NCBI GenBank assembly: GCA_022729735.1
Contig: DZAY01000003.1
Location: forward strand, 1-64,000
Direction of reading: 5' to 3'
Source of the DNA: Helicobacter cetorum
GTDB taxonomy: Bacteria > Campylobacterota > Campylobacteria > Campylobacterales > DZAY01
Length of the DNA: 64,000 nucleotides
Shown: positions 26,261 to 43,474 of the stretch, in pieces
How positions within the stretch are numbered: position 1 is the first letter of the stretch
Layout: each line of letters starts with the position of its first letter
The notes under the pieces: generated by a model
What the model saw: only the letters and a program-made list of their open reading frames with translations
Told to the model about the DNA's origin: nothing
The model's database searches: none
Made by a program: the position numbers and the translations under genes

Positions 26261-26650
26261 ATGAGCCATATGGATTTTGCACATCCTTATTTTGGTGTGT
26301 TTATTATGTTTATTACTACAATGCTATCGTTTGCTGGAACTCTATTTTTGGCAAGACTTGTTAGTAGAAAATTAGCTAAACTCGATAATGAGAAGCTAAA
26401 ATTAAGTATTTATGAGTGTGGGCCAGAAGTTACAAAACAGCCAAACAAAATATCTGCTCAATTCTATCTATTTGCAGTTCTTTTTATCGTATTTGATATA
26501 GAAATTATATTTCTATTTCCATGGGCTGTAGATTTTAAACCTCTTGGTTGGTTTGGATTTATTTCTATCATGGTATTTTTAACAATTCTTACAATTGGAT
26601 TTATCTATGAGTGGAGAAAGGGAGCATTAGAATGGCACAGCATAAAGTAA
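26261..26650 (+). CDS. nuoA: Complex I subunit A
   Basis: Membrane subunit at the interface of the peripheral and membrane arms. Three membrane helices (about residues 12-32, 66-86, 94-115) and the family block [39 protein letters not shown] are present; the motif's Cys-containing loop is intact. It is first in the nuo cluster, with AAGGGG upstream of its ATG. The gene overlaps nuoB by 19 bases. Confidence 0.96.
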
Positions 26651-27141
26651 ATTATGTTCAAAATGGTGGTTTGCCAGTTGTTTTAACAACTGTTGATAAA
26701 CTTATAAATTGGGGTAGAAGTAACTCTCTTTGGGCTTTAACTTATGGTTTGGCTTGTTGTGCTATTGAAATGATGGCAAGTGGAGCAGGAAGATTTGATT
26801 TCGATAGATTTGGAACAATTTTTAGAGCAAGTCCAAGACAAGCAGAAGTTATGGTGGTTGCTGGAACTCTAACTAAAAAACATGCTGAATTTATTAGAAG
26901 ACTTTATGACCAAATGGCAGAACCAAAATGGGTAATATCTATGGGAAGTTGTGCAAATACAGGTGGAATGTTTAACACTTATGCAACAGTTCAAGGTGCA
27001 GATAGAGTAATTCCTGTGGATATATATCTTCCTGGATGTGCTCCAAGACCAGAAACTTTGCAATATGCAGTTATGATGTTGCAACAAAAAATTAGAAGAG
27101 AGTCAGCTTTTTCAAGACTAAAACCAAAAAGGCTTGTGTAA
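26632..27141 (+). CDS. nuoB: Complex I subunit B
   Basis: Peripheral-arm subunit carrying terminal iron-sulfur cluster N2 next to the quinone site. Cluster ligands are visible as the adjacent Cys pair in [10 protein letters not shown], then Cys in [10 protein letters not shown] and in [11 protein letters not shown] start at ATG 26632 ([10 protein letters not shown]), because AGGGAG lies about nine bases upstream; the ORF track start at 26611 adds seven extra residues. Its length is then 169. Confidence 0.96.
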
Positions 27142-27941
27142 TGAGAGAGTATAAACCAAAAGATAATGTTCAAGCAAAAGCTTACTACACAGATAGATTT
27201 TGGGTACCAGAAAAGTTTCCAAAAATAGCAGTTGAAAGTGATGAAATTTTTTTAGCAGATTTAGAAGCTCTAAAATCAAATTTTGAAGTTTTAGATTCAT
27301 ATATTCAAGGTGAGAATTTATTAGTTACAATAAATGCAAAAGATAATAAACAGGTTGTAGAGTTTTTGAAAAATCGCTCTTATGACTGTTTGAGCGAAAT
27401 TAGTGCCGTTGATTGGTTAGCTCAAAGTGGGCAGTTTGAAGTCTTTTATCAAATGTTATCTATTTCCAAAGTAAAACGAATTAGAGTTAAATGTTTTATT
27501 AGAGAAAATGAAGCAATTGAGAGTGTTGAGCCTATCTTTAAATCTGCTAATTTTGCAGAGCGAGAAATGTTTGATATGTTTGGAATTGTTGCAAATAACC
27601 ATCCATATATGAAACGAATATTAATGCCAGATGATTGGAGTGGTTATCCACTTAGAAAAACTTATCCTCTTCAAGGCGATGAAGCTGCTCAATGGTATGA
27701 AGTTGATAAAATTTTTGGTAAAGAGTATAGAGATATTATTGGACCAGAAAATAGAGACCCAGCAAGAGTTGATAGATATGATACAGAACGATTTGCAAGA
27801 ATTGGTAAAGAGGTGCCATTTGGTAGCGAACCATTAGCAGATGACAAAACAACAGCTATCAAATATCAAGAAGAGAGTGGTGTTCTATTAATTGAAAAAT
27901 TTGACCCAAAAACTTCTAAACAGTTAGAAGAAAGAAAGTAA
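27141..27941 (+). CDS. nuoC: Complex I subunit C
   Basis: 30-kDa peripheral subunit that shapes the connection between electron chain and quinone site. The C-terminal signature AEREMFDMFGIVANNHPYMKRILMPDDWSGYPLRKTYPL is intact (about residues 133-175). An N-terminal extension (REYKPKDNVQAKAYYTDRFW) is as in other Campylobacterota. The gene is not fused to nuoD, unlike in E. coli. ATG overlaps the nuoB TAA by one base. Confidence 0.95.
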   Translation: MREYKPKDNVQAKAYYTDRFWVPEKFPKIAVESDEIFLADLEALKSNFEVLDSYIQGENLLVTINAKDNKQVVEFLKNRSYDCLSEISAVDWLAQSGQFEVFYQMLSISKVKRIRVKCFIRENEAIESVEPIFKSANFAEREMFDMFGIVANNHPYMKRILMPDDWSGYPLRKTYPLQGDEAAQWYEVDKIFGKEYRDIIGPENRDPARVDRYDTERFARIGKEVPFGSEPLADDKTTAIKYQEESGVLLIEKFDPKTSKQLEERK

Positions 27942-27954
27942 AAGGTAGTTTAAT

Positions 27955-29181
27955 ATGCAAACAAAAAATAGATTAAACCCGTTTTTTGAAAATATCTCTT
28001 TTGATAGAGTTGATAACCATATGATTGTAAATTTTGGTCCTCAACATCCATCAGCTCACGGACAGTTGAGATTAGTATTGCAACTTGATGGTGAAAAAGT
28101 TGTAAAAGCACTTCCAGATATTGGATATCTTCATAGAGGTATGGAGAAGATGGCAGAAAATATGATTTATAATGAGTTTTTGCCAACAACAGATAGAATG
28201 GATTATATTGCAGCAACTTCAAATAATTATGCTTTTGCATTAGCAGTTGAAAAGTTAATAGGAGTTGAAGCTCCACGAAGAGCAAAAGTAATTAGAACAA
28301 TGCTTTTAGAGCTTAATCGAATAATTTCTCACCTCTTTTTCTTAGCAACTCATGCTTTAGATGTTGGAGCTATGAGTGTATTTTTATACTGCTTTAGAGA
28401 GAGAGAGTTTGCTATGGATTTAATGGAAGATTATTGTGGAGCAAGACTTACACATTCAGCGGTTAGAATTGGTGGAGTTCCTCTTGATTTACCAGATGGT
28501 TGGCTTGCAAAACTAAAAAAATTCTTAGATGATATGCCAGCTCAAATAGATATTTATGAAGGGCTACTTACAGAAAATAGAATTTGGAGAATGCGACTTG
28601 AAGGAGTTGGAGTATTACCACCTGAAGAAGCAAAGAGTTGGGGTTGTAGTGGAGTAATGGTTAGAGGTAGTGGCATTGCTTGGGATATTCGAAAAGAAGA
28701 GCCTTATGAGCTTTATGATGAACTTCAGTTTGATGTTCCTATTTCAAATCTATGTGATAGTTATGGTAGATATTTACTCTATATTGAAGAGATGCGACAA
28801 AGTGTAAATATAATTCATCAACTATTTAAAATGTATGAAGAGAGTTCGCCAGAAATAATGGCACACTCACCAAAATATATATCAGCACCAAAAGAGCAAA
28901 TGATGACTCAAAACTACTCATTGATGCAACATTTTGTGCTTGTTACTCAAGGAATGAGACCGCCAGTTGGTGAAATTTATGTTCCAACAGAGTCTCCAAA
29001 AGGGGAGTTAGGATTTTATATAAACTCTATTGGAGAACCATATCCATATAGATTAAAGGTTAGAGCACCAAGTTTTTATCATACAGGTATTTTACAACAT
29101 ATGTTAGTTGGGCAATATTTAGCAGATGTTGTTACAATTATTGGTAGCACAAATATTGTTTTTGGTGAAGTTGATAGATAG
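27955..29181 (+). CDS. nuoD: Complex I subunit D
   Basis: 49-kDa subunit that forms the quinone pocket together with NuoB. Recognisable blocks are [49 protein letters not shown] and RLEGVGVLP; the C-terminal [11 protein letters not shown] and [14 protein letters not shown] are complete. The conserved His of GPQHPSAHG and Tyr of [12 protein letters not shown] are present, so quinone chemistry should be intact. 408 residues is typical. Confidence 0.96.
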
Positions 29182-29189
29182 GAGTTTAT

Positions 29190-29423
29190 ATGCAAAGATT
29201 TGATTTAAGACATCTAAAAGATAATTTTTATAATAGAATGGTTGAGCTTTTAGAAAAAGATACAAAACCAAATGAGGTTGCGATTTTTCTATTTGAAATA
29301 GGCGATTTTTCACCAGTTCAAAAGAGTGCTGATATTATAAAAGAGAATAGACATGAGTTAATGAACTCTCTTAAATATAATGAAGTTGATTGGACAGTAG
29401 TAGTTAAGAGGAGAGCAGATTGA
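29190..29423 (+). CDS. Short NuoE-like protein of Campylobacterota type
   Basis: A 77-residue protein at the place of nuoE. It lacks the thioredoxin fold and the four Cys that hold the [2Fe-2S] cluster N1a of normal NuoE, and has no Cys at all. The pattern RFDLRHLKDNFYNRMVELLE, EVAIFLFEIGDFSPVQKSAD and YNEVDWTVVVKR resembles the small protein annotated in this slot in Campylobacter. It is coupled to the next gene by a four-base overlap. It is presumably an adaptor of the altered electron-input module. Confidence 0.8.
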   Translation: MQRFDLRHLKDNFYNRMVELLEKDTKPNEVAIFLFEIGDFSPVQKSADIIKENRHELMNSLKYNEVDWTVVVKRRAD

Positions 29424-31426
29424 GTAGAGTCTATTTTTCCACTTGGCAGGGTGAGTTAATTGATAATAGAGGTAAAAAAGAGGATGAATTTGTAAAATCT
29501 GCTTTCCATTTTCCATTTGATTACTCTAAAAATCAAAGCTCATTGGCATTTATTGGGTGGAATGGCTTTGCTATTTTTAGTGAAGATATTGATATTGTAA
29601 AACTTGCTTTAGAGTATGCTAAGCAATATCAAATCTACTCTGAAGCTTGTGGAAGATGTGCTCCAGGGAGATGGGGTGGTAGAATTTTATTTGATATACT
29701 TGATAAAATTGCAAGAGGTGAAGGTGATTTAGCTGATTTAAAACAGTTAAAAGAGACATCGCAAACTATGCAACTCACAAGTAAATGTGAAATAGGTAAA
29801 AGTGTGCCGACACCTATTTTATCAATGTTAGAATATTTTGAAGATAGATTTTTAGAGTTAATCAATAACAAAAAAAGCTCACCACAATATAATAGTGATA
29901 TAAATTATATTGCAAAAGTAACTGCTCCATGTATGGATGTTTGTCCAGCACATGTTGATATTCCAGCATATATTGAAGGTGTTAGAGATTTAAGATTTGA
30001 TGACTCACTAAAATCTACAAGACAAACTATGCCACTATCTCATACTTGTGGTAGAGTCTGTCCTCATCCTTGTGAAAATGCTTGTAGAAGAGCAAATTTA
30101 GATTCTCCAATTGCAATTATGGAGCTAAAGCGAATTGGAGCTGATTATGAGAGTGATCATAATTTAGAGTGGTTTCATCCAATTGAGCCAAAACCTAAAA
30201 ATGCAAAAAGAGTGGCAATTATTGGAGCAGGTCCAGCAGGACTTACAGGTGCTTATTACCTTGGAGTTGAGGGAGTGAGTTGTGATGTTTATGAAGAGCT
30301 ACCAGTTTTAGGTGGTGAAGTCACTGTTGGAGTTCCAGAATATAGAATGCCATTTGATAAATATAGTAGAGATATAGAGTTAGTTAGAAGTGTTGGAACA
30401 AATTTTATAACTAATACAAAAGTAACTGCTGATATGATGAGAGAGTTTGAAAAAAATTATGATGCAATTTTAGTAGCAACAGGCACAAGGCTTTCTAAAA
30501 AAATTAGAGCAAAAAATGAGCGAAAAGAGATAAAAGGTTATTGGCCAGCTATCCCATATTTAGATGAGATAAATCTATATGTAAAATTTGGAATTGGAAA
30601 ACCAGTTGATTTAAGTGGTAAAACTTTAGTTTGTGTTGGTGGTGGATTTACTTCAATGGATGTTGTTAGATGTGCAATTAGAGCTAATGCAAAAAAAGTG
30701 GTAATGTTATATCGAAGAGATGAAAAAACTATCATTGGAAATACATCTTATGAAGAGTATCACGAAGCAGTTGAAGAAGGAGTTGAGTTTATATTCCATT
30801 CGGCAGTAGAAGAGATTATTACAGATGAAGCAGATAATTTAATATCACTAAAAGTTAATAGATTTGAACTTCAAGCAGACCCAAATGGTGGAAAACCTCA
30901 ATTAGTTCAAGTTGCTGATGGAGACTTTTTTATTGAATGCGACTATTTAGTTCCAGCAGTATCACAAGATGCTGACCTTTCACTACTACCAAGTGAGTGG
31001 AGTATTGAAATGACAAGTTGGAACACAATCAAAACAGATGGTAAAACATATATGACAAATAGACATGGAATTTTTGCTGCTGGTGATTGTGAATATGGAC
31101 CTATGACAATTGTAAATGCTGTTGGACAAGCAAAAAGAGCTGCTTCTGTAATTAGTAGATATGTGCATACAAAAGAGATTAGTTTAACTCATGATGAAAT
31201 CATGGAAGACCATTTAAGAAAATTAAAAGTTTATGATAAAAAAGAGAACATCAGTGGTTGGATGAAAGGTTTAGAGCGAGAAGTGAGTGAAAAACTTGAT
31301 GTTGATATTAGAAAGTTTAATAACGAAGAGGTAAATTTTGGCTTTACTCAAGAACAAGCAATAGCAGAAGCTGAAAGATGTATGAGATGCTACTATATCG
31401 CAATGGTTGCTACAAAGGATGCATAA
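29420..31426 (+). CDS. NuoF-like / GltD-like fusion in the complex I operon
   Basis: Residues 1-150 resemble only the C-terminal iron-sulfur end of NuoF, with CGRCAPGRWGGRILFD and KCEIG; the FMN- and NADH-binding domain is absent. Residues about 155-650 are a GltD-type oxidoreductase: iron-sulfur region CMDVCPAHVDIP and CGRVCPHPCENAC, an FAD site VAIIGAGPAGLTGAYY, a second nucleotide site VCVGGGFTSMDVVRC and the C-terminal GIFAAGDCEYGPMTIVNAVGQAKRAA. This module would let NAD(P)H or another donor feed electrons, replacing normal NuoF. TTG start overlaps the previous stop. Confidence 0.85.
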   Translation: MSRVYFSTWQGELIDNRGKKEDEFVKSAFHFPFDYSKNQSSLAFIGWNGFAIFSEDIDIVKLALEYAKQYQIYSEACGRCAPGRWGGRILFDILDKIARGEGDLADLKQLKETSQTMQLTSKCEIGKSVPTPILSMLEYFEDRFLELINNKKSSPQYNSDINYIAKVTAPCMDVCPAHVDIPAYIEGVRDLRFDDSLKSTRQTMPLSHTCGRVCPHPCENACRRANLDSPIAIMELKRIGADYESDHNLEWFHPIEPKPKNAKRVAIIGAGPAGLTGAYYLGVEGVSCDVYEELPVLGGEVTVGVPEYRMPFDKYSRDIELVRSVGTNFITNTKVTADMMREFEKNYDAILVATGTRLSKKIRAKNERKEIKGYWPAIPYLDEINLYVKFGIGKPVDLSGKTLVCVGGGFTSMDVVRCAIRANAKKVVMLYRRDEKTIIGNTSYEEYHEAVEEGVEFIFHSAVEEIITDEADNLISLKVNRFELQADPNGGKPQLVQVADGDFFIECDYLVPAVSQDADLSLLPSEWSIEMTSWNTIKTDGKTYMTNRHGIFAAGDCEYGPMTIVNAVGQAKRAASVISRYVHTKEISLTHDEIMEDHLRKLKVYDKKENISGWMKGLEREVSEKLDVDIRKFNNEEVNFGFTQEQAIAEAERCMRCYYIAMVATKDA

Positions 31427-33682
31427 ATGGTAACTTATTTTATTGATGGAATAGAGGTTAAAGCTCAAAAAAGTGAGACAATATTACAAGTAGCAAGAAG
31501 ATATGGTATTTATATTCCAACAATGTGTTATCTAACTAAAACAAAACCGATAGCATCTTGTAGATTATGTGTTGTTGAAATTGAAGGAAGTAGCGGTTTT
31601 GTGCTTAGTTGCCAAACACCAGCAGTTAATGGAACAAAAGTTATAACAAACTCCATTGAATTAAAACGACATAGAACAAACATTATGAAACTTTATAATG
31701 TAAATCACCCTTTAGAGTGTGGAGTTTGTGATAAAAGTGGATATTGTGATTTGCAAAATAAAACTTTGGAGTTTGAGCTATCTTCTCAAGAGTTTAGTGC
31801 AAAAGAGCAAAAAAGAGATATTAAAAAGTATCAATTTTTAAACTACGACCCAAATTTATGTATATTATGTGAAAAGTGTGTCCATACTTGTAATGAAATT
31901 ATTGGAGATGATGCAATTACTATTAGTTATGGTGGATATAAGTCTGCTATTGTCCCAAAAAATTCTGATGAACTTGATTGCACAAATTGTGGTGAATGTA
32001 TATCAGTTTGTCCAGTTGGTGCATTAGTAAGTAGCGATTTTCAATACAAATCAAATGCTTGGGAGCTTAATAAAATACCAGCGAGTTGTTCTCATTGTAG
32101 CTCTTTGTGTGCTATAAATTATGATGTTAAAACTATAACTCAAAATGGAAAATCGCTGAAAAAAATATTTAGAGTAACAAATGAGTATGAGTATAATAGT
32201 ATATGTGGAGCAGGTAGATTTGGATTTGATTTTGAAAATAGAGCTGGATATAAAGAAGAAGATTTAAAAAAAGTTATAAGCGAGTTTCAAAAAGCTGACA
32301 CGATTAAATTTAGTTCATATATCACAAATGAAGAAGCTCTTATTCTTCAAAATTTAAAAAAACTTTATGGTTATAGATTGATAAATTCCGAAGCTAAAAG
32401 ATATCAAGAGTTTTTAAATAATTACTCTAAAATTAGTGGAAAATCACTATATAGTGCGAGTTTAGATGATATTAAAGAGAGTGATTTTATTATAGTTGTA
32501 GGTTCTATGATAAAGAGTGATAATCCCGTAGCAAGATATGCTTTGACTGTTGCTTCTAAGCAAAAAAGAGCAGAAATTATCTATATGCATCCAATTGATG
32601 ATGAGTTGCTTAAAAATGTATATACAAAACATATCAAATATGAGGTTGGAACTGAAGAGGGAGTAGTTGCTATGGTTGCTAACTCTTTTATTGGTAGTGT
32701 AGATAGTGAAGCTATAAAAAAATATTTAAGTGGTTTAGATATTGGATATATTTCGGCTGAATCTAATGTTGGCGAAGAAGAAATTTTAGACTTGGTTAAA
32801 CGATTTAAGCGAAAGAAAAAGCCAACTATAATTATTGGTGAAGATATTATATCTCATAAAAGAGCTAATAATATAGCAAAATTAGTAGCTCTTTTGGAGC
32901 GATATGCTAACTTTAAGACTTTAATAGTTCCACCAAAAACAAACTCACTTGGAGTTGCTCTGATTTGTGATTTAGATAATGAGTGTGGAAATTACACTAT
33001 TGGATACAATAGTGATGGCAACTTTACACTTAGTAGCTTAGGTGATGGAGATTTTAATATTCCTGCTCTCAATCAACAAGAAGGGACTTTTGTAAATATT
33101 AATAAAAGAGTAGTTCCTACAAATGTTGCAATAAGTCATAATGGATATTCTCTAAATGATATAGCAAATCTACTTGGATTAGATAAAAAATATACTATTG
33201 ATTACACAAAAGAGCTACCTTTAGCAAAAGGGTTTAAAAGTGAAGAGTTTGATAATTTAAAAAATAGAATTGACTCTTTGGTTGATGAGCGAGGTTATGA
33301 GTTAAGCTCTTTGACAATCGAATTAGAAGATATATTAGAAGAAATTGAGGATTTACCAACATTCAATGGTTTGGTTGTATATAACTCTAATCCAATATTG
33401 CAATTTAATAGTTTTACAAATAAGACTAAGCAGTTAAATGCAAAACCTATTTTAGAAGGTTCAAAACAGTTTGCAATAGGTGCAAAAATTGGAGATGGTG
33501 ATAAGGTAGAACTATTAATTGATGGAAGATTATTTAAGCGAGTGTTTAAAATTGATACAAAATTAAAAGGTATGATAGGTATAAATCCAACCTTTGATAT
33601 GAGCTTAAGTGACGATTTGGTATCCTCAACCTATAAGTATAAACAAGTAAAAATCCAAAAAGTGGTAGAGGGAAATGAATAA
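31427..33682 (+). CDS. nuoG: Complex I subunit G, first copy
   Basis: Large iron-sulfur subunit of the peripheral arm. N-terminal [2Fe-2S] Cys are at residues 34, 45, 48 and 62; the His-Cys3 motif reads HPLECGVCDKSGYC; two [4Fe-4S] motifs are CILCEKCVHTC and CTNCGECISVCP. A third, molybdopterin-oxidoreductase-type motif CSHCSSLC plus a Cys in NSICGAGRFGFD suggests cluster N7. The C-terminal region (about 250-751) follows the molybdopterin oxidoreductase fold. The ATG follows the fusion gene's stop directly, and the gene overlaps the second nuoG by eight bases. Confidence 0.93.
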   Translation: MVTYFIDGIEVKAQKSETILQVARRYGIYIPTMCYLTKTKPIASCRLCVVEIEGSSGFVLSCQTPAVNGTKVITNSIELKRHRTNIMKLYNVNHPLECGVCDKSGYCDLQNKTLEFELSSQEFSAKEQKRDIKKYQFLNYDPNLCILCEKCVHTCNEIIGDDAITISYGGYKSAIVPKNSDELDCTNCGECISVCPVGALVSSDFQYKSNAWELNKIPASCSHCSSLCAINYDVKTITQNGKSLKKIFRVTNEYEYNSICGAGRFGFDFENRAGYKEEDLKKVISEFQKADTIKFSSYITNEEALILQNLKKLYGYRLINSEAKRYQEFLNNYSKISGKSLYSASLDDIKESDFIIVVGSMIKSDNPVARYALTVASKQKRAEIIYMHPIDDELLKNVYTKHIKYEVGTEEGVVAMVANSFIGSVDSEAIKKYLSGLDIGYISAESNVGEEEILDLVKRFKRKKKPTIIIGEDIISHKRANNIAKLVALLERYANFKTLIVPPKTNSLGVALICDLDNECGNYTIGYNSDGNFTLSSLGDGDFNIPALNQQEGTFVNINKRVVPTNVAISHNGYSLNDIANLLGLDKKYTIDYTKELPLAKGFKSEEFDNLKNRIDSLVDERGYELSSLTIELEDILEEIEDLPTFNGLVVYNSNPILQFNSFTNKTKQLNAKPILEGSKQFAIGAKIGDGDKVELLIDGRLFKRVFKIDTKLKGMIGINPTFDMSLSDDLVSSTYKYKQVKIQKVVEGNE

Positions 33683-36119
33683 AATAAGTATAACTATTGA
33701 TGGACAGAGTGTAGAAGCAATAGAAGGAGAGTATATATTAGATGTTGCAAGAGCTAATAATATTTTTATTCCCGCTATTTGTTACTTAACAAGGTGTTCG
33801 CCAACTTTGGCTTGTAGATTGTGTTTAATTGATGTAGATGGAAAACAAGCTTATGCTTGTAATGCAAAAGCAAAAGCTGGACAAACTGTTTTAACGGTTA
33901 CAGAAAATATTTTAAAAGAGCGAAGAGCTATAATGGAGGTTTATGATATAAATCATCCATTAGAGTGTGGTGTTTGTGACCAAAGTGGAGAGTGTGAATT
34001 GCAAAACTACACATTAGAAATTGGTGTTGATTCTCAAACCTACTCTATAAAAGATACACATAAAGTGGCAAAGGATTGGGGATTAATCCATTATGACCCA
34101 TCTTTATGTATTGTGTGTGAGAGATGTATTACTGTTTGTAAAGATATGATAGGTGATAGTGCATTAAAAACTATGCCACGAGGTGGAGTTGAATTAGATG
34201 CTTCACTAAAAGAGACTATGCCAAAAGATGCATATTCTATGTGGAATAAGCTGAATAAATCAATCATTGGACTTAGCTCGGGTGGCGATAAACTTGATTG
34301 CACAAGTTGTGGTGAGTGTATTGCAGTTTGTCCTGTTGGGGCTTTAGTTAGTAGTGACTTTCAGTATAAATCAAATGCTTGGGAACTTAAATCAATTCCA
34401 GCATCGTGTAGCCATTGTAGTTCAGCTTGTCACCTGTATTATGATGTTAAACACACAAGTATCGATAATATTGATAAAAAAATTTATCGTGTAAAAAATG
34501 AGTTTCACTACTCAACTCTTTGTGGAGCTGGAAGATTTGGATTTGATTATGAAAATAGAGTAGCTTCAAAAGATGATAACTTAAATCAAGCAGTGGATGC
34601 TTTTAGAAATGCTGATACAATTAAATTTGACTCATTTATTACAAATGAAGAAGCACTAATTCTTCAAAAACTAAAAGAAAAATTTGGTTATAAATTAATA
34701 AATCATGAAGCTTTACGATTTAAAAACTTTTTGAACTCATACTCAAAAACTTCTGGAAATAGCCTTTATAGTGGAGATTTAAAGAGCATACATAGTAGTA
34801 ATTTTATAGTTTCGCTTGGCTCTATGATAACGACAGATAATCCAAGAGTAAGATATGCCATAAATAATTCATTAACTGTAAATAAAGGTGCATTGCTATA
34901 TTTTCATCCTATTAAAAATAGTTTAGTTGAGGGAATGAGTAAAAATATAGCTACAATTTATCATACTCCAAACTCTGAAGAAGCAGTGCTTTATCTACTA
35001 TTAGAGCTATTTGCTAAAAAAGAGAGTTTGCCAAAAGAGATTAATAGCTATTTAGACTCTCTAAAATATACAAAAGTTAAAAAAGTTGTAGAGAATATTA
35101 GAGAAAAAGTTATTACAAAAACTGTTGATGAAAATGGTGTAGAAAAAGAGGTAGAGAGTTTTGTTCCTAAAAAGATAGAAAAAGATGTAGAAGTTAGTTA
35201 TAGCAAACTATATGATATGCTAAATTTAAAAGATAGCTTTTTAGATGATTTAGAAAAGCTTTTAGCTAAAAAAGATAGCTTTGCTTTAGTTGTTGGAGAA
35301 GATTTAATAACTCATAAAAATTCTGCAAATTTAGCGAAATTAGTTGGAATTTTGGAAAGATGTTCAAATTTTAAAGTTTTAATAATTCCACCAAAAACTA
35401 ACTCTTTGGGTGTATCACTTATTTGTGATTTGGATAGTAAAGGTGGTAAATATAGTATAGGTTATAATGTAGATGCTGACTATAAATTAAGTAGTTTGGG
35501 TGATGGAGATTTTAATATTCCAGCACTGAATCAGCAAGAAGGAACTTTTGTAAATATTGATAAAAGAGTTGTTCCTACAAATGTAGCACTTCCACATAGT
35601 GGTTATACATTAAATGATATTGCTAAAGCTTTAGATATTGATAGAGAATTCACGATAAGCTATACAAAAGAGCTACCTTTAGCAAAAGGGTTTAGAGAAG
35701 TTGAATTTGATATGTTACAAAATAGTTTTGATAATTCTCAAAATGAGAATAGAGGTTATTTGTTAGAAAATTTCAAAACTAATATAGATGATAGTTTAGA
35801 AAATTTTGAAATAACAGATTTAAAAGGGGTTATACTTTATAGCTGTAATCCAATTTTACAATTTAATGAATTTACATATAACTCTAGCCAATTAAAAGAG
35901 GTTTTAAGCTTAGAAGCATCAGAAGAATTTTTAACTAAAAATAGTCTAAGTGAAGGTGATTTGTGTGAGATAAAAATCGAGCAAAATAGTATAACTCTTC
36001 CTATTAGATTAAACAGTAAAATAGGAGGTAATATTGCACTTTTACCAAATTATCACTCAAAAGTAGTTAATCTTATTGATGGTTATAGATTTACAACAGC
36101 AATAATCAAAAAGGTGTAG
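33675..36119 (+). CDS. nuoG: Complex I subunit G, second tandem copy
   Basis: A paralogue of the preceding gene with the same Cys sets: HPLECGVCDQSGEC, CIVCERCITVC, CTSCGECIAVCP, CSHCSSACHLYYD and LCGAGRFGFD. Shared stretches such as DFQYKSNAWEL and GDGDFNIPALNQQEGTFVNI show a tandem duplication. It is longer (814 residues) owing to an insertion of about 30 residues between the two ferredoxin-like motifs and a charged insertion near residue 480 (EVESFVPKKIEKDVE). Both copies look intact, so both may be used. The ATG has GAGGG upstream. Confidence 0.93.
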   Translation: MNKISITIDGQSVEAIEGEYILDVARANNIFIPAICYLTRCSPTLACRLCLIDVDGKQAYACNAKAKAGQTVLTVTENILKERRAIMEVYDINHPLECGVCDQSGECELQNYTLEIGVDSQTYSIKDTHKVAKDWGLIHYDPSLCIVCERCITVCKDMIGDSALKTMPRGGVELDASLKETMPKDAYSMWNKLNKSIIGLSSGGDKLDCTSCGECIAVCPVGALVSSDFQYKSNAWELKSIPASCSHCSSACHLYYDVKHTSIDNIDKKIYRVKNEFHYSTLCGAGRFGFDYENRVASKDDNLNQAVDAFRNADTIKFDSFITNEEALILQKLKEKFGYKLINHEALRFKNFLNSYSKTSGNSLYSGDLKSIHSSNFIVSLGSMITTDNPRVRYAINNSLTVNKGALLYFHPIKNSLVEGMSKNIATIYHTPNSEEAVLYLLLELFAKKESLPKEINSYLDSLKYTKVKKVVENIREKVITKTVDENGVEKEVESFVPKKIEKDVEVSYSKLYDMLNLKDSFLDDLEKLLAKKDSFALVVGEDLITHKNSANLAKLVGILERCSNFKVLIIPPKTNSLGVSLICDLDSKGGKYSIGYNVDADYKLSSLGDGDFNIPALNQQEGTFVNIDKRVVPTNVALPHSGYTLNDIAKALDIDREFTISYTKELPLAKGFREVEFDMLQNSFDNSQNENRGYLLENFKTNIDDSLENFEITDLKGVILYSCNPILQFNEFTYNSSQLKEVLSLEASEEFLTKNSLSEGDLCEIKIEQNSITLPIRLNSKIGGNIALLPNYHSKVVNLIDGYRFTTAIIKKV

Positions 36120-36121
36120 GC

Positions 36122-37117
36122 ATGGATATTGGAATTTATGTAATTGAAACAATCATTAAGATTGTAGTAGTTTTAACGGTTTTTTCAGCATTAGGTGGTT
36201 TTACAACTTATATTGAAAGAAAAGTTTTAGCATTTATGCAGAGACGACTTGGTCCTATGCATGTTGGTCCTTATGGACTTTTGCAAGTTTTAGCAGATGG
36301 TATAAAGCTTTTTACAAAAGAGGATATTATTCCTCAAAATGCAGTAAAGCCAATTTTTGCAATAGCTCCAGTTATTTCAGCAGCGACAGCTTTTATTGCA
36401 ATGGCTTCAATACCATTTTTACCAGAGTTTTCTATTGGAGACCATGTTGTTAGACCAATTATTGCAGATATAAATATTGGTATTCTATTTGTATTGGGTG
36501 TTATGGCAATTGGAATGTATGGACCACTTTTAGCAGGTCTTGCATCTTCAAATAAATGGTCTATGCTTGGAGCTGCTCGAGTTGTAGTTCAACTTTTATC
36601 ATTTGAGTTAATTACAGGACTTGCTATTATTGCTCCAATTATGCTTGTTGGCTCAATGTCTTTAATAGATATAAATAACTATCAAAGTGGAGGTATTTCT
36701 GATTGGTTAATTTGGCTTCAACCAATAGCATTTATACTATTTATGATAGCAGGGTTTGCTGAAACAAATAGAACTCCTTTTGACTTATTAGAGCATGAAG
36801 CAGAAGTTGTTTCAGGATTTGCAACAGAGTATTCAGGAATGAAATGGGGTATGTTTTTTATAGGTGAGTATGCAAACATGTTTACAATCGCATTTTTAGG
36901 TGCAATTGTATTTTGTGGTGGTTTTAATGATTTATGGTTTATTCCAGGTGGAATTGCAATTATCCTAAAGGTATTTTTCTTTATTTTCTTATTCTTATGG
37001 ACAAGAGCAGCTTGGCCACACATTAGACCAGACCAATTAATGTGGTTATGTTGGAAAGTTTTGATGCCTTTAGCACTAATAAACATTGCTGTTACTGGCT
37101 TTGTAGCACTGATATAG
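36122..37117 (+). CDS. nuoH: Complex I subunit H
   Basis: Membrane subunit that links the quinone site to proton pumping. About eight membrane helices are present, plus the conserved stretch GPMHVGPYGLLQVLADGIKLFTKEDIIP and the acidic loop AETNRTPFDLLEHEAEVVSGFATEYSGMKWG. The charged residues that line the quinone path are retained. 331 residues is normal. Start ATG is two bases after the second nuoG stop. Confidence 0.96.
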   Translation: MDIGIYVIETIIKIVVVLTVFSALGGFTTYIERKVLAFMQRRLGPMHVGPYGLLQVLADGIKLFTKEDIIPQNAVKPIFAIAPVISAATAFIAMASIPFLPEFSIGDHVVRPIIADINIGILFVLGVMAIGMYGPLLAGLASSNKWSMLGAARVVVQLLSFELITGLAIIAPIMLVGSMSLIDINNYQSGGISDWLIWLQPIAFILFMIAGFAETNRTPFDLLEHEAEVVSGFATEYSGMKWGMFFIGEYANMFTIAFLGAIVFCGGFNDLWFIPGGIAIILKVFFFIFLFLWTRAAWPHIRPDQLMWLCWKVLMPLALINIAVTGFVALI

Positions 37118-37126
37118 GAGAGAGAT

Positions 37127-37711
37127 ATGGAGAAAAAAGGGTATAAGCTAATAGATACAGAGCCAATGCCATCAGGCTTTGCTGTATTTAAAAGATTTTT
37201 AGGAAGAGCCGTTAAATTTGAACTCTTTAAAGGTTTAGGTATAGTTTTTAAAGAGATGGTAGATTTCAAAATTCATACAACACAATATCCAAAAGAGAAA
37301 CTTCCTATAAGCCCACGATATAGAGCAATTCATAAACTATTGAGACTTTTAGAGAGTGGGAATGAGAGATGTATTGGTTGTGGTTTATGTGAAAAAATTT
37401 GTATCTCAAAATGTATTAGAATGGATACAAGGATTGATGAAAATAGTAGAAAAGAGGTTTCAGAATATACTATTAACTTTGGCAGATGTATCTTTTGTGG
37501 ATATTGTGCAGAAGTATGTCCAGAATTGGCAATTGTTCATGGAGATTTATATGAAAATTCAAGTGAGCAAAGAGCCCATTTTGCACTAAAGAATGATATG
37601 CTAACACCAATTGATTGGATAAAAGCAAAAAAACAGGAAGAGTTTTCAGGTTTTGGCGCTCCAAGCAAAGATGCTGATAAGTTTATCAAAAAAACACCAC
37701 TTGCTTATTAA
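37127..37711 (+). CDS. nuoI: Complex I subunit I
   Basis: Ferredoxin-like subunit with clusters N6a and N6b that hands electrons to N2. Cys motifs are CIGCGLCEKICISKC and CIFCGYCAEVCPE. The N-terminal amphipathic stretch and RYRAIHKLLRL precede them. At 194 residues it has the C-terminal extension typical of Campylobacterota. The start ATG follows GGAGAG. Confidence 0.96.
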   Translation: MEKKGYKLIDTEPMPSGFAVFKRFLGRAVKFELFKGLGIVFKEMVDFKIHTTQYPKEKLPISPRYRAIHKLLRLLESGNERCIGCGLCEKICISKCIRMDTRIDENSRKEVSEYTINFGRCIFCGYCAEVCPELAIVHGDLYENSSEQRAHFALKNDMLTPIDWIKAKKQEEFSGFGAPSKDADKFIKKTPLAY

Positions 37712-37722
37712 AAGGATTTAAG

Positions 37723-38289
37723 ATGCTTGAAGCAGTAGCTTTTTACTTATTTGCAGGACTTACAGCTGCAATGTTTTTGATTGTTGCATTTACAAAGAAT
37801 GTGCTATATGCTATGAGTGCAATGGCAGCAGGTACAATATTTATATCTGCTTTTTTCTTTTTATTAGATGCCGAATTTTTAGGGGTTGTGCAAATTATAG
37901 TTTATACGGGAGCTATTATGGCTCTTTATGCTTTTGGAATGATGTTTTTTGACTCTACAAAAGATGTTAAAGAGAAAGTTGCAAATCAAAAAATTCTATT
38001 TTTATTAAGTGGTGGTATAGCACTACTTCTTGTAGTACTTTTAGTTGCACCAATTGCTGGTGAAAATATTTTAGTTGAAGCTCCTATTGATTCTGATATT
38101 GGTAATGTTCAAGCTATTGGTATGGTGCTTTTTACAAAATATCTAATCCCATTTGAGCTAACTGGAATTATGCTACTTGTTGCAATGGTTGCTGGAATTA
38201 TTTTGGCAGGTAAAAAGATGGATAAGAGTTTAACATTGATGGATGAAGCAGATATAGAGCGAGAATTTAATTCAAAAGGACAAGAATGA
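37723..38289 (+). CDS. nuoJ: Complex I subunit J
   Basis: Antiporter-associated membrane subunit with five predicted helices. The helix-3 region FLGVVQIIVYTGAIMALYAFGMMFF contains the pi-bulge stretch found in NuoJ. It overlaps nuoK by four bases; AAGGA precedes the ATG. 188 residues, no defect seen. Confidence 0.95.
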   Translation: MLEAVAFYLFAGLTAAMFLIVAFTKNVLYAMSAMAAGTIFISAFFFLLDAEFLGVVQIIVYTGAIMALYAFGMMFFDSTKDVKEKVANQKILFLLSGGIALLLVVLLVAPIAGENILVEAPIDSDIGNVQAIGMVLFTKYLIPFELTGIMLLVAMVAGIILAGKKMDKSLTLMDEADIEREFNSKGQE

Positions 38290-38588
38290 TAACTCTAAAT
38301 CACTACTTAATATTATCAACTCTCCTTTTTATAATAGGCATGATAGGTGTTATGAGAAGAAAAAATTTACTTATGTTATTTTTTTCAACAGAAATTCTAT
38401 TAAATGCTATCAACATAGGTTTTGCAGCAATTTCAAAATTTTATGCTGATTTAAATGGACAAATGTTTGCATTTTTTATAATTGCAATTGCTGCTTCAGA
38501 GGTTGCTGTTGGACTTGGTCTTTTAATTCTTTGGTATAAGAAAAAAGGGACACTCAATATTGACAATCTTCAAACAATGCATGGTTAA
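38286..38588 (+). CDS. nuoK: Complex I subunit K
   Basis: Smallest membrane subunit, 100 residues with three helices. The buried Glu residues needed for proton transfer appear in FFSTEILLNAINIGF and IAIAASEVAVGLGLL. The start overlaps the nuoJ stop, showing coupled translation. Confidence 0.96.
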   Translation: MITLNHYLILSTLLFIIGMIGVMRRKNLLMLFFSTEILLNAINIGFAAISKFYADLNGQMFAFFIIAIAASEVAVGLGLLILWYKKKGTLNIDNLQTMHG

Positions 38589-38597
38589 AGGTTTAAT

Positions 38598-40454
38598 ATG
38601 GAAAAAATTGTTTATATAGCACTTTTTGCACCACTTGTTGGCTCATTATTTGCTGCTATTTTTGGAAATAGTCCAAAAAAACTTATTACAGGAGTAGTTA
38701 CATCGGCACTACTTGCAACATCTATGGTTGCATCAATTGCACTATTTATTTATACATTTGATGGACCAAAAGTTGAAGTGAAAATGTTAGATTGGATTAG
38801 TGCAGGTAATATATCTATACCGTTTGGTTTTTTAGTAGATCAAGTTTCTGCTACTATGATGATAGTTGTTACAATTGTTTCAACTTTTGTGCATATATAC
38901 TCTATTGGTTATATGAAACATGAAAAAGGTTTTAATAGATATTTTTCTTACCTTTCAGCTTTCGTATTTTCAATGATGATACTTGTTATGAGTGATAATT
39001 TTGCAGGACTGTTTATTGGTTGGGAAGGAGTAGGTCTTTGTTCTTGGCTTTTAATTGGTTATTGGTATCATAAAGAGAGTGCTTCTTGGGCTGCTAATGA
39101 AGCATTTATTATGAATAGAATTGCCGACCTTGGTATGCTTGTTGGACTATTTTATATATATTGGAATGTCGGCTCACTTCAATATTCTGACTTTTTTGCG
39201 AAAGTTGGAGATTTAAATAGTGGTGTATTAGTTTTAGTTGGAATATTCTTGTTTATTGGTGCAATGGGAAAATCGGCACAATTCCCACTTCATACTTGGC
39301 TTGCTGATGCAATGGAAGGTCCAACTCCTGTTTCGGCATTAATTCATGCTGCTACAATGGTTACTGCTGGAGTTTATCTTGTAATTAGAGCAAATGAGTT
39401 ATTTACACTTATACCAAATGTAGGGCTATTTATCGCTTGTCTAGGTGCATTTGTTGCAATATTTGCAGCTACAATGGCACTTGTAAATGAAGATTTAAAG
39501 CGAATTATTGCTTATTCTACATTATCTCAACTTGGATATATGTTTGTTGCAGCTGGACTTGGAGCTTATTGGATAGCACTTTTCCACTTAATGACACATG
39601 CTTTCTTTAAATCTCTTCTATTCTTAGGTGCTGGTAATGTTATGCATGCTATGCATGATGAATTAAATATTAAAAAAATGGGTGGATTATATAAAAGTAT
39701 GAAATTGACAGCTATTATGATGATAATAGCTTCAGTAGCATTAGCTGGAATATATCCATTTGCAGGATTCTTTTCAAAAGATAAAATATTAGAAGTAGCA
39801 TTTGCAGAAGGACAATATATATTGTGGGCAATGCTATTTATTGGTGCAGGTTTGACAGCATTTTATAGCTTTAGATTGATTATGATGGTTTTCTTTGGAA
39901 AAGAAAATTATAAAGAACTTGGAATTCATCCACATGAGGCATATAACTATATGTTGGCTTCAATGGCTCCATTAACACTTTTAGCGGTTATTGGTGGTAT
40001 GTTTGGTGGAGCATTTTATTCTTATGTTACAATGACTCTTCCAGAGTATCATATGGACTTAAATCATTCAATTGCGATTGGTTTGATAATTGCCACATCT
40101 ATTGTTGCAATAGGTGGAATTACAGTAGCAGTATTTAAATACAAAGCTGGTGGATTTAGTAAATCTTGGGAGAATACATTTATATATAAACTTCTATTTA
40201 ATCAATACTATATCCCAAAACTTTATGAGATTGTTATTACAACACCATATCTTCAACTATCAAAAATAGCTTGGAAAGAGATAGATATGAAAATTGTGGA
40301 TGCAACAGTTGATATGATAGCAAAAACAATATATTGGTTGGGTGGAGAGTTAAGATTTATTCAGAGTGGAAACCTATCTATTATGCTTAGATGGATGAGT
40401 GCTGGTTTATTGATACTTTTAGCTTTAGCTATTATTTGTAGTGCATTTATTTAA
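38598..40454 (+). CDS. nuoL: Complex I subunit L
   Basis: Distal antiporter-like proton-pumping subunit with about 16 helices. Diagnostic blocks include FIGWEGVGLCSWLLIGYW with the key Glu, FPLHTWLADAMEGPTPVSALIHAATMVTAGVYL, DLKRIIAYSTLSQLGYM and FAGFFSKDKIL. The C-terminal lateral helix region (about residues 520-618) is complete. 618 residues is normal. Confidence 0.97.
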   Translation: MEKIVYIALFAPLVGSLFAAIFGNSPKKLITGVVTSALLATSMVASIALFIYTFDGPKVEVKMLDWISAGNISIPFGFLVDQVSATMMIVVTIVSTFVHIYSIGYMKHEKGFNRYFSYLSAFVFSMMILVMSDNFAGLFIGWEGVGLCSWLLIGYWYHKESASWAANEAFIMNRIADLGMLVGLFYIYWNVGSLQYSDFFAKVGDLNSGVLVLVGIFLFIGAMGKSAQFPLHTWLADAMEGPTPVSALIHAATMVTAGVYLVIRANELFTLIPNVGLFIACLGAFVAIFAATMALVNEDLKRIIAYSTLSQLGYMFVAAGLGAYWIALFHLMTHAFFKSLLFLGAGNVMHAMHDELNIKKMGGLYKSMKLTAIMMIIASVALAGIYPFAGFFSKDKILEVAFAEGQYILWAMLFIGAGLTAFYSFRLIMMVFFGKENYKELGIHPHEAYNYMLASMAPLTLLAVIGGMFGGAFYSYVTMTLPEYHMDLNHSIAIGLIIATSIVAIGGITVAVFKYKAGGFSKSWENTFIYKLLFNQYYIPKLYEIVITTPYLQLSKIAWKEIDMKIVDATVDMIAKTIYWLGGELRFIQSGNLSIMLRWMSAGLLILLALAIICSAFI

Positions 40455-40467
40455 GGAGTGAAAGCAG

Positions 40468-41994
40468 ATGGATGGAATATTAACGATACTTGTCTTTTTT
40501 CCAGCAATAGCAGGACTATTAGGGTTCATAGTATCAAAAGATAGTATAAGAGTTTATGGATTGACTGTAACTTTTATAGAGTTTGCACTATCTTTATGGT
40601 TATGGTTTGCATTTGATTCAACAAATGCTGGTATGCAGTTTGTAGAGCATTATGCCTTAATTCCTATATATGGTATTAACTATATTTTAGGAGTGGATGG
40701 AATATCTCTATTTTTAGTAATAATGACAACATTTATAACTTTTATAGGTTTGATAAGTCTATCTATAAAAGAAGACATTAAAAATTTAATTATTACTATA
40801 TTATTTTTAGAAATGACTATGGTTGGTGTATTTGTTGCACTTGATGCGATAGTTTTCTATCTATTCTGGGAGCTTTCACTTATTCCTATGCTCTATATAA
40901 TTGGTGCTTGGGGTGGAAATTTAAGAGTTTATGCAGCTATTAAGTTTTTCTTATACACATTCTTAGCATCTCTAATTATGTTAGTTGGTATGTTATATCT
41001 TGGACTTACACATTATGAAATGACAGGTATTTGGAGTTTCGCTATTTTAGATTGGCAACTACTTGATTTACCATTTAATTTACAACTATGGCTCTTTGTT
41101 GCTTTTTTTATCGGATTTGCTGTCAAAGTTCCAATGTTTCCTTTTCATACTTGGTTGCCATATGCACACGGTCAAGCACCAACAATTGGTTCAGTAATAT
41201 TAGCTGCTGTTCTACTAAAAATGGGAACTTATGGATTTGTTAGATTTTCGCTTCCGATTTTTCCAGATGCTTCAGTATATTTTATCACTCCAATTGCAAT
41301 CATTGCAATAATTATGATTATTTATACAGCTATGATAGCTTATGCTCAAGATGATATAAAACAAGTTATTGCTTATAGCTCTGTTTCACATATGGGTGTA
41401 ATTGTTATTGGAACATTTGCAATGAGTGCAGAAGGAATTGGTGGTTCAATATTTTTGATGTTATCACACGGTATTGTAAGTGGTGCTTTGTTTATGTTGG
41501 TTGGTGTAATTTATGATAGGCGACATACCAAGATGTTAGATGAGTTTGGAGGACTTGCAAAAGTTATGCCAAATTATGCAACAATTTTTGGAATAATGCT
41601 TATGGCTTCAGTTGGATTACCTCTAACAATAGGTTTTGTTGGTGAGTTTTTATCACTAATTGGATTTTTTCACTATTCACCAACTATGACACTTTTAGCT
41701 GGTTTCACGATTATTTTAGGTTCAGTTTATATGCTTACAGTTTATAAAAAGACATTTTTTGGAGAAGTTACAAATAGTAAAAATTTAAGTTTAAAAGATT
41801 TAGATGCAAAAGAGCTATCAGCACTAATTCCTCTAACACTGATTGTGGTTTGGCTTGGTGTTTATCCAAAACCTGTTCTTGCCCCAATTGATAATAGTGT
41901 TAAGAGTATGCTTGAGTTAATGAGAGATAAAGCTGTAACAAAAGAGGCTAAAGAGCTTATAATCTCTGCTAATAAATTGGTAGAGGAGAAGTAA
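40468..41994 (+). CDS. nuoM: Complex I subunit M
   Basis: Second antiporter-like subunit with about 14 helices. Conserved parts are [20 protein letters not shown] with the essential Glu, [48 protein letters not shown] and [10 protein letters not shown] short soluble helix ends the protein. Thirteen bases separate it from nuoL and one from nuoN. Confidence 0.97.
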
Positions 41995-41995
41995 T

Positions 41996-43474
41996 ATGTT
42001 AGATATTAGTTTTGATAGTTTAAATTTTGCAAGTATTGTTCCAATGTTAATTATTATCATTGGTGGTTTGACAATACTTACAGTTGATTTATTCAAAAAA
42101 GGTTTATCAAAAAGTTTTTATACAATAATTAGTGTTCTATTTATATCAATAGACCTTTTGGCAGTTATTAGTTATAGTAGTGGAGAGAGAGCTTTTTTTG
42201 ATGTAATATTAGTTGATGGTATCTCTTTATTATCACAAATGTTGATACTATTAGCATCTGCACTATTTATTCCTTTGGCTTTAACATCAAAAAGGTTTCA
42301 TGAGTTCTCTTATCCAGAATTTTTTGCACTCTTTTTATTTATGATTGCAGGTTTCCAATTTATGGTTTCATCAGATAATTTAATTCTGATTTTTATAGGT
42401 TTAGAAACAGCAGGTTTAGCACTATACACATTAATTGCTCTGCATAATAGAGATAAATCTATTGAAGCAGCAATTAAATATTTTACAATGGGTGCAATGG
42501 CAGCAGGATTTTTTGCATTTGGTTCTATGATTTTATATGGTTTGACAGGCAGTGTAGAGATTTACAAAATTGCAGAGATTTTAGTTATGAATGAGTTTCA
42601 ACCACTACCATTTATATTAACAGCTATTGTATTTATTTTGGCAGCACTTGGATTTAAACTCTCATTGGTTCCATTTCATACTTGGACTCCAGATGTGTAT
42701 GAAGGAACTTCAGCAGCATTAGCAGGTTATATGTCGATTGTTCCAAAAATTGCTGGTTTTGTTGTAGCTATGCGATTTTTTGAATTTTTTGTGCTTTCAG
42801 ATATTCCTATTGTTAATAATATTTTATTTGGAATAATTGTAATTACAATGACTTTGGCAAATATATTAGCACTTGTTCAAGAAGATGTTAAACGAATGTT
42901 AGCATTTAGTTCTATTTCACATGCTGCATTTGGATTTGTTGCAATTTATCTTGGAACTACTCAAGCAAATAGTGCTTTGTTTTTATATTGGACAATGTTC
43001 TTATTTGCAAACTTAGGAGCATTTACAATGCTTTGGGTTTCAAGACACAAAAGTCAAGTATGGCATGAGAGATATGACCATCCATATACAAAGTTTTCTG
43101 GTATGATAAAAATGATGCCAATGGGTGCTGTAATTATGGCAATATTTATGTTTGCACTTGCAGGTATGCCACCATTTTCTCTATTTTGGGGAAAAATGTA
43201 TATGATTAGTTCTGCTCTTAATGCTGGAGAGATAGCTTTGGCTATAATTATGGCATTAAATAGTGCAATAGCTGCATATTATTATATTAAGCTTGTTGTA
43301 TTTATGTTTTTTAAAGACCCAACAACAAACGATGGAACGGTTTATGTCAGAAATGCTTCTCATTCACTAAAAACAATTATAGGCTTTTCTGTAATTGTTA
43401 CAATCTTTTCATCACTTTTAGTAAATCCTTTATTAGAAATAATTGGTTATTATGTTACAATTAGCGGATTTTAA
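41996..43474 (+). CDS. nuoN: Complex I subunit N
   Basis: Third antiporter-like subunit with about 14 helices. Conserved stretches are [18 protein letters not shown] with the key Glu, [52 protein letters not shown] and [15 protein letters not shown]. It ends the nuo cluster; an inverted repeat overlaps its stop codon, and pflA follows after 22 bases. Confidence 0.96.

Follow-up and report, generated by a model that had tools for sequence, protein, structure and literature searches.

How does a respiratory complex I exchange electrons when its operon lacks the usual NADH-binding input subunits? The question is raised by a nuo operon in a 64 kb stretch of DNA (the window; positions 1 to 64,000 of contig DZAY01000003.1, assembly GCA_022729735.1, Helicobacter cetorum), where the nuoF position is occupied by a 668-residue protein joining a C-terminal piece of NuoF to a GltD-type oxidoreductase (hereafter the fusion). 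The operon spans 26261-43474 on the + strand and contains 15 genes in the order nuoABCD-small NuoE-fusion-G1-G2-HIJKLMN (Table 1), with the complex I core NuoA-D and NuoH-N all in this single operon. It probably encodes an NADP(H):menaquinone complex I, in which a GltD module of the StnC/NfnABC type replaces the flavin mononucleotide (FMN)/NADH input and which runs mainly in reverse to supply NADPH.

Pfam searches identified NADH_4Fe-4S, Fer4_20 and Pyr_redox_2 domains in the fusion. The FMN/NADH domain PF01512 was found neither in the fusion nor in the operon, and the 2Fe-2S thioredoxin-fold NuoE domain PF01257 was not found in the operon, so that both domains of an NADH-dependent complex I are missing from it. 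The preliminary description of this DNA had a small protein and a NuoF/GltD fusion replacing NuoE and NuoF; both open reading frames (ORFs) lie where it placed them, the TTG start codon of the fusion overlapping the stop of the 77-residue ORF as TTGA, and the Pfam domains agree. A GltD-type module in the place of NuoF is likewise borne out, by the domain search and by a fold match.

Amongst 106 distinct fusions, Cys171, 175, 210, 214, 218 and 222, Lys237, Arg309 and a Tyr-Arg-Arg motif are invariant, whilst Cys654 and Cys657 are present in 105, with a gap in the remaining sequence. Counted along the alignment, Lys237 and Arg309 coincide with StnC Lys170 and Arg239, the fusion shares the Tyr-Arg-Arg in its second nucleotide fold with StnC, NfnABC and NfnL, all of them NADP(H) enzymes, and both NfnB/NfnL sequences aligned carry Glu at the Lys237 position. 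The GltD-type domain of StnC binds flavin adenine dinucleotide (FAD) and NADPH, and its FAD-proximal cluster C7 is held by three Cys and Lys170, where NfnB has Glu (PMC10482914). A K170A exchange lowers the activity of StnC. A GltD fold with an equivalent Lys-bearing cluster site beside the FAD places the fusion with StnC and NfnABC, and its universal Lys237 sets it apart from NfnAB. By analogy with StnC and with pig dihydropyrimidine dehydrogenase, the proximal cluster would be ligated by Cys175, 214, 218 and Lys237, and the distal cluster by Cys171, 222, 654 and 657. The four-Cys N3 site of NuoF is absent, as Gly83 replaces the third Cys in 106/106 fusions with Cys77, Cys80 and Cys123 kept; this is a lineage-wide change, with N3 perhaps a 3Fe-4S or open-site cluster. 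Cys405, Phe410 and Cys557, near the second nucleotide-binding and FAD motifs, are also invariant in the 106 fusions, and Cys418 is nearly so.

An AlphaFold model of the fusion, built from 16 sequences (predicted local distance difference test (pLDDT) 80, predicted template modelling score 0.80), found its best PDB matches in 9bov_A (Z 38.8, root mean square deviation 3.1 over 466 residues), 9n5v_A (Z 37.8) and 8oh5_C (Z 37.4). All three are GltD domains of NfnABC/StnABC transhydrogenases and cover model residues 159-665; this search with the whole model barely probed the N-terminal N3 domain. Lower matches included GltD (2vdc, Z 33.7) and NfnL (5jfc, Z 33.1).

The 77-residue protein upstream starts with ATG and matches both PF16514 (NADH-UOR_E), over its full length, and PDB 2lxr, the Helicobacter pylori solution structure 'NADH dehydrogenase I subunit E'. 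It belongs to the known HP1264-type NuoE-like family, with PF16514 found in 159 of 200 Campylobacterota genomes, and is not new. It contains no Cys, as had been described, but this is not a rule of the family, since 40 of 126 distinct homologues do have Cys.

A separate NuoE/NuoF pair, named in the preliminary description as one refutation of its claim, was sought throughout the source genome (G000; 66 contigs, 99.5% complete, 7.4% contamination). The sole PF01512 protein is HoxF-like and lies on contig C56 beside HoxE, HoxU, HoxY and HoxH-like genes, and PF01257 is matched twice, by that HoxE and by part of the HoxF-like protein. This cluster is a bidirectional hydrogenase, not complex I, and because every PF01512 and PF01257 match lies within it, a separate pair serving complex I was rejected. 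Next to the Hox cluster (L136:758-8715), in which HoxE lies upstream of HoxF, HoxU, HoxY and an ORF similar to a large subunit, are NuoB-, NuoH- and NuoL-like genes reminiscent of a membrane-bound group 4 hydrogenase. On contig C10 a GltB-like ORF is followed by a separate GltD, a pairing that the fusion does not have, and PntB transhydrogenase was not found in the source genome.

The fusion is typical of chemolithoautotrophic Campylobacterota and not peculiar to the source genome. Of the 200 genomes 46 contain it, one of these (G199) having a partial match in a 425-residue open frame. The genera include Sulfurimonas, Sulfurovum, Sulfuricurvum, Nitratiruptor, Nitratifractor and Hydrogenimonas, with further occurrences in Helicobacteraceae bins and Helicobacter sp. 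11S02629-2, and the best 80 matches to the fusion all bear Campylobacterota names. Where enough flanking sequence was available, 128/128 fusion ORFs come immediately after the small NuoE and 72/72 immediately before NuoG1; as 106 distinct sequences share architecture and position, the fusion is not a product of chance. ATP-citrate lyase (PF16114) is also present in 46 of the 200 genomes, including 37 of the 46 with the fusion (Fisher p = 3e-23, uncorrected for kinship). Nine genomes have the lyase and no fusion, six in family f5, in whose listed genomes PF16514 was not found, and three in f11.

Downstream of the fusion, NuoG1 and NuoG2 both have the ligands of one 2Fe-2S and one His/Cys3 4Fe-4S cluster, together with two four-Cys motifs. 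Ten of 11 NuoG1 retain the N7-type Cys set, which over half of the compared NuoG2 have lost, in operons with and without the fusion; the remaining NuoG1, from a fusion-bearing operon (L050, 6067-8316), has lost this site and the ligands of one 4Fe-4S cluster. The preliminary description listed both copies, but did not recognise that the first corresponds, at full length, to the 'NuoF-like' subunit of Campylobacter/Helicobacter. We compared 41 operons, designated type A with the fusion and type B without. Every type A operon with enough downstream sequence has a full-length NuoG1, whilst none of the 18 type B operons does; 17 of them have a short protein, and one (L052) has neither. L052 (3816-6444), which is Helicobacter-like, lacks a short NuoG1 and has its NuoG2 split over two ORFs (305 and 510 residues). 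The gene between the small NuoE and NuoG2 encodes 231-350 residues in type B operons; one such operon is H. pylori-like, because its small NuoE is identical to 2lxr at 75/76 residues, and family f3 is probably Campylobacter-like. In C. jejuni the short protein is Cj1574c, reported to pass on flavodoxin electrons (PMC4178425), and this type of protein has been described as a NuoF replacement (PMC6682613).

We rejected kinship of the short subunit with NuoF, as its profile gave no match to the fusion and matched NuoG1 columns 355-757 (E = 1e-51), with a weaker match to NuoG2 (E = 3e-23). It is without the N-terminal iron-sulfur (Fe-S) half of NuoG1. At the Cj1574c/HP1265 position, the short subunit appears from these profiles to be a truncated second NuoG without Fe-S domains; no earlier description of a NuoG1 origin for this subunit was found in the literature searched. 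The Fe-S-free short forms suggest that the C-terminal domain of NuoG1 has a scaffolding role.

Operon types A and B interleave on a NuoB-C-D tree, where well-supported branches force at least 6 changes between them. In a tree of the NuoG1 domain, short forms group with the NuoG1 of their relatives, which disfavours a single clade of all short subunits, although the approximately unbiased test did not reject such a clade (p = 0.076). The fusion tree recovers f2, f6, f7, f8 and f9 each as one group and its distances correlate with those of NuoBCD (r = 0.84), consistent with mainly vertical inheritance. The f7 fusions sit inside f4 (support 81-89), so f7 may have gained its fusions by transfer instead of its type B member having lost one. 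Losses of the fusion and of the NuoG1 Fe-S half on several lines are most likely the history of the Campylobacter/Helicobacter-type operons.

In the mechanism that we propose, the GltD module would be docked to complex I through the retained N3 domain of NuoF. Electrons would pass from NADP(H) to FAD, to the proximal and then the distal 4Fe-4S cluster, from there to the clusters of NuoG1, either directly or through the three-Cys N3, and on through NuoG2, NuoI and NuoB (N2) to menaquinone, coupled to proton pumping. Run in reverse in autotrophs, proton-motive force and quinol would yield NADPH for the reductive tricarboxylic acid (TCA) cycle. We infer assembly into the complex, preference for NADP(H) over NAD(H), the exact path and the direction of flow. 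The preliminary description had suggested NADPH or ferredoxin/flavodoxin coupling; NADPH is the best-supported donor or acceptor, because the NADP(H) domain of StnC/NfnABC has a matching fold, cluster ligands and second nucleotide motif, whilst ferredoxin and flavodoxin have no direct support here. The proposed mechanism is supported by the kinship of the fusion to NADP(H) enzymes, its operon position, its co-occurrence with the Fe-S half of NuoG1, the association with the reductive TCA cycle and the missing PntB. Several points weigh against this interpretation. It is drawn from sequence and from a model built on 16 sequences, in which the cluster-binding loops have pLDDT <50. Flow through N3 is uncertain, because only three Cys are present. 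Phe410 replaces the Asn of aligned relatives, so nucleotide use could differ. A glucose-6-phosphate dehydrogenase family match in the source genome is another possible source of NADPH. Finally, the link between fusion and autotrophy is not strict, because nine fusion genomes, from families f2 and f6, are without ATP-citrate lyase and the three f11 genomes have the lyase alone.

Other readings of the operon differ in where electrons enter. The module could exchange electrons with NADH, which would leave an NADH:quinone complex I that is ordinary apart from its flavoprotein; Rossmann-type specificity switches with few changes, and Phe410 and the 431-447 loop are unlike those of characterised NADPH enzymes, but we consider this unlikely given that the Tyr-Arg-Arg shared with StnC, NfnABC and NfnL occurs in every one of the 106 fusions and that the nearest fold relatives bind NADP(H) (PMC10482914). 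Alternatively, ferredoxin or flavodoxin could deliver the physiological electrons at NuoG1/NuoG2, an entry already proposed for Campylobacter, the GltD module being a side branch, similar to ferredoxin-NADP+ reductase, that equilibrates NADPH with ferredoxin. The two full four-Cys motifs in each NuoG, the need of autotrophs with the fusion for reduced ferredoxin, and the reported flavodoxin use of C. jejuni complex I (PMC4178425, citing Weerakoon and Olson 2008) all speak for such entry; however, no ferredoxin-docking site was identified and flavodoxin use is reported for the operons that have no GltD module, and there is only a small chance that this arrangement is correct.

A variant of our proposal, which we regard as improbable, has the complex handle two low-potential couples at once, with NADP(H) exchanging at the flavin of the GltD module and ferredoxin at the extra 4Fe-4S clusters of NuoG1; quinol and proton-motive force would then give NADPH and reduced ferredoxin for the reductive TCA cycle, or menaquinone would receive electrons confurcated from both donors. 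Many GltD-type proteins are soluble, and no structure of a fusion-type complex was among the matches found, so that the fusion might be a separate soluble oxidoreductase merely sharing the operon. This is very improbable, as the fusion carries the NuoF N3 domain, which contacts NuoG in complex I, and sits exactly at the nuoE/nuoF position in all examined operons, paired with a full-length NuoG1 wherever that could be read.

Several known systems lie close to the NADP(H):menaquinone complex I that we favour. GltD modules on NuoF/NuoG-type wires are already known from the bifurcating transhydrogenases StnABC/NfnABC (Nfn-Bfu; PDB 8oh5, 9bov, 9n5u), which share with the fusion the GltD-type FAD domain and the cluster ligand pattern, including a Lys next to FAD and two Cys at the C-terminus. 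In the fusion, however, GltD is joined to the N3 domain of NuoF and not to NuoG, the partner is the membrane complex I, and the FMN bifurcating core BfuB/StnB is absent from the operon, as there is no PF01512. Alternative complex I inputs are known from the Nuo-Bfu complex I of Geobacter (PMC9304861), which likewise has a replaced input module and a predicted second low-potential couple, but keeps the FMN/NADH subunit BfuB where the fusion operon has a GltD-type FAD unit. Canonical complex I (NuoEFG) has in common the core A-D and H-N, an N3-type domain and NuoG, whereas the fusion operon has no 2Fe-2S NuoE, no FMN/NADH domain, two NuoG and a three-Cys N3. The epsilon-type complex I of Campylobacter/Helicobacter (Cj1575c-Cj1574c, HP1264-HP1265, 'nuoXY') has the same small NuoE-like subunit and operon and an orthologous NuoG2; it lacks the fusion, and its protein at the NuoF position is the shortened NuoG1 without Fe-S sites, whereas the window has the fusion and a full-length NuoG1 and so falls outside this type. 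Replacement of NuoEF in Campylobacterota was already known (PMC6682613; PMC4585668), and nuoE, F, G and K are reportedly absent from Nautilia (PMC2628731). We found no earlier description of a GltD-NuoF fusion as complex I input in the literature searched, which probably did not cover the 2007-2008 Sulfurimonas/Sulfurovum genome papers, so a prior mention is possible.

Table 1 Features of the nuo operon in the 64 kb window.
Feature	Position	Strand	Basis
nuoA	26261..26650	+	ORF; homologues at same position in other operons
nuoB	26611..27141	+	ORF limits, true start perhaps ATG at 26635; homologues in other operons
nuoC	27141..27941	+	PF00329, E 5e-39
nuoD	27955..29181	+	ORF; comparison with other operons
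Small NuoE-like subunit, 77 aa, HP1264/Cj1575c type	29190..29423	+	PF16514, E 2e-39; PDB 2lxr, E 4e-27
Fusion, 668 aa: NuoF C-terminal N3 domain and GltD/StnC-type FAD/4Fe-4S module	29420..31426	+	Domains, fold, conservation in 106 sequences
N3-like cluster domain of fusion, residues 73-145: Cys77, Cys80, Gly83 (for third Cys), Cys123	29636..29854	+	PF10589 (NADH_4Fe-4S)
Two putative 4Fe-4S sites of fusion, residues 168-247: Cys171, 175, 210, 214, 218, 222, Lys237	29921..30160	+	PF14691 (Fer4_20); StnC alignment
FAD and second nucleotide-binding folds of fusion, residues 264-571: Arg309, Tyr431-Arg432-Arg433	30209..31132	+	PF07992 (Pyr_redox_2)
C-terminal Cys-x-x-Cys of fusion, residues 654-657, predicted to complete distal 4Fe-4S cluster	31379..31390	+	Alignment, conservation
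nuoG1, full-length second NuoG, 751 aa, every Fe-S site present	31427..33682	+	Profile matches, alignment
nuoG2, 814 aa, orthologue of single Campylobacter/Helicobacter NuoG	33675..36119	+	NF006305, 1148 bits
nuoH, I, J, K, L, M, N	36122..43474	+	ORFs; homologues, same order, other operons

Upstream of nuoA, a 575-residue AAA+ ATPase (24401-26128) has close homologues (about 577-587 residues, or cut at locus ends) in ~45 fetched nuo loci of both operon types, and may function in assembly or as a chaperone.

At sulfidic vents, carbon is fixed to a major extent by chemolithoautotrophic Campylobacterota, whose route from sulfide- or hydrogen-derived quinol to NADPH is poorly settled. A built-in NADP(H) module on complex I, if true, would give them a direct route to NADPH, through an enzyme that can be tested. 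The unusual complex I of Campylobacter/Helicobacter looks like a stripped-down version of this fusion-type complex, and the puzzle of its 'NuoF replacement' is recast, the subunit being an apparent remnant of a second NuoG whose Fe-S clusters are gone. With those clusters lost from the short subunit, flavodoxin would need to donate its electrons to NuoG2 or elsewhere, which changes the choice of subunits to examine for the feeding of complex I in Campylobacter and Helicobacter.
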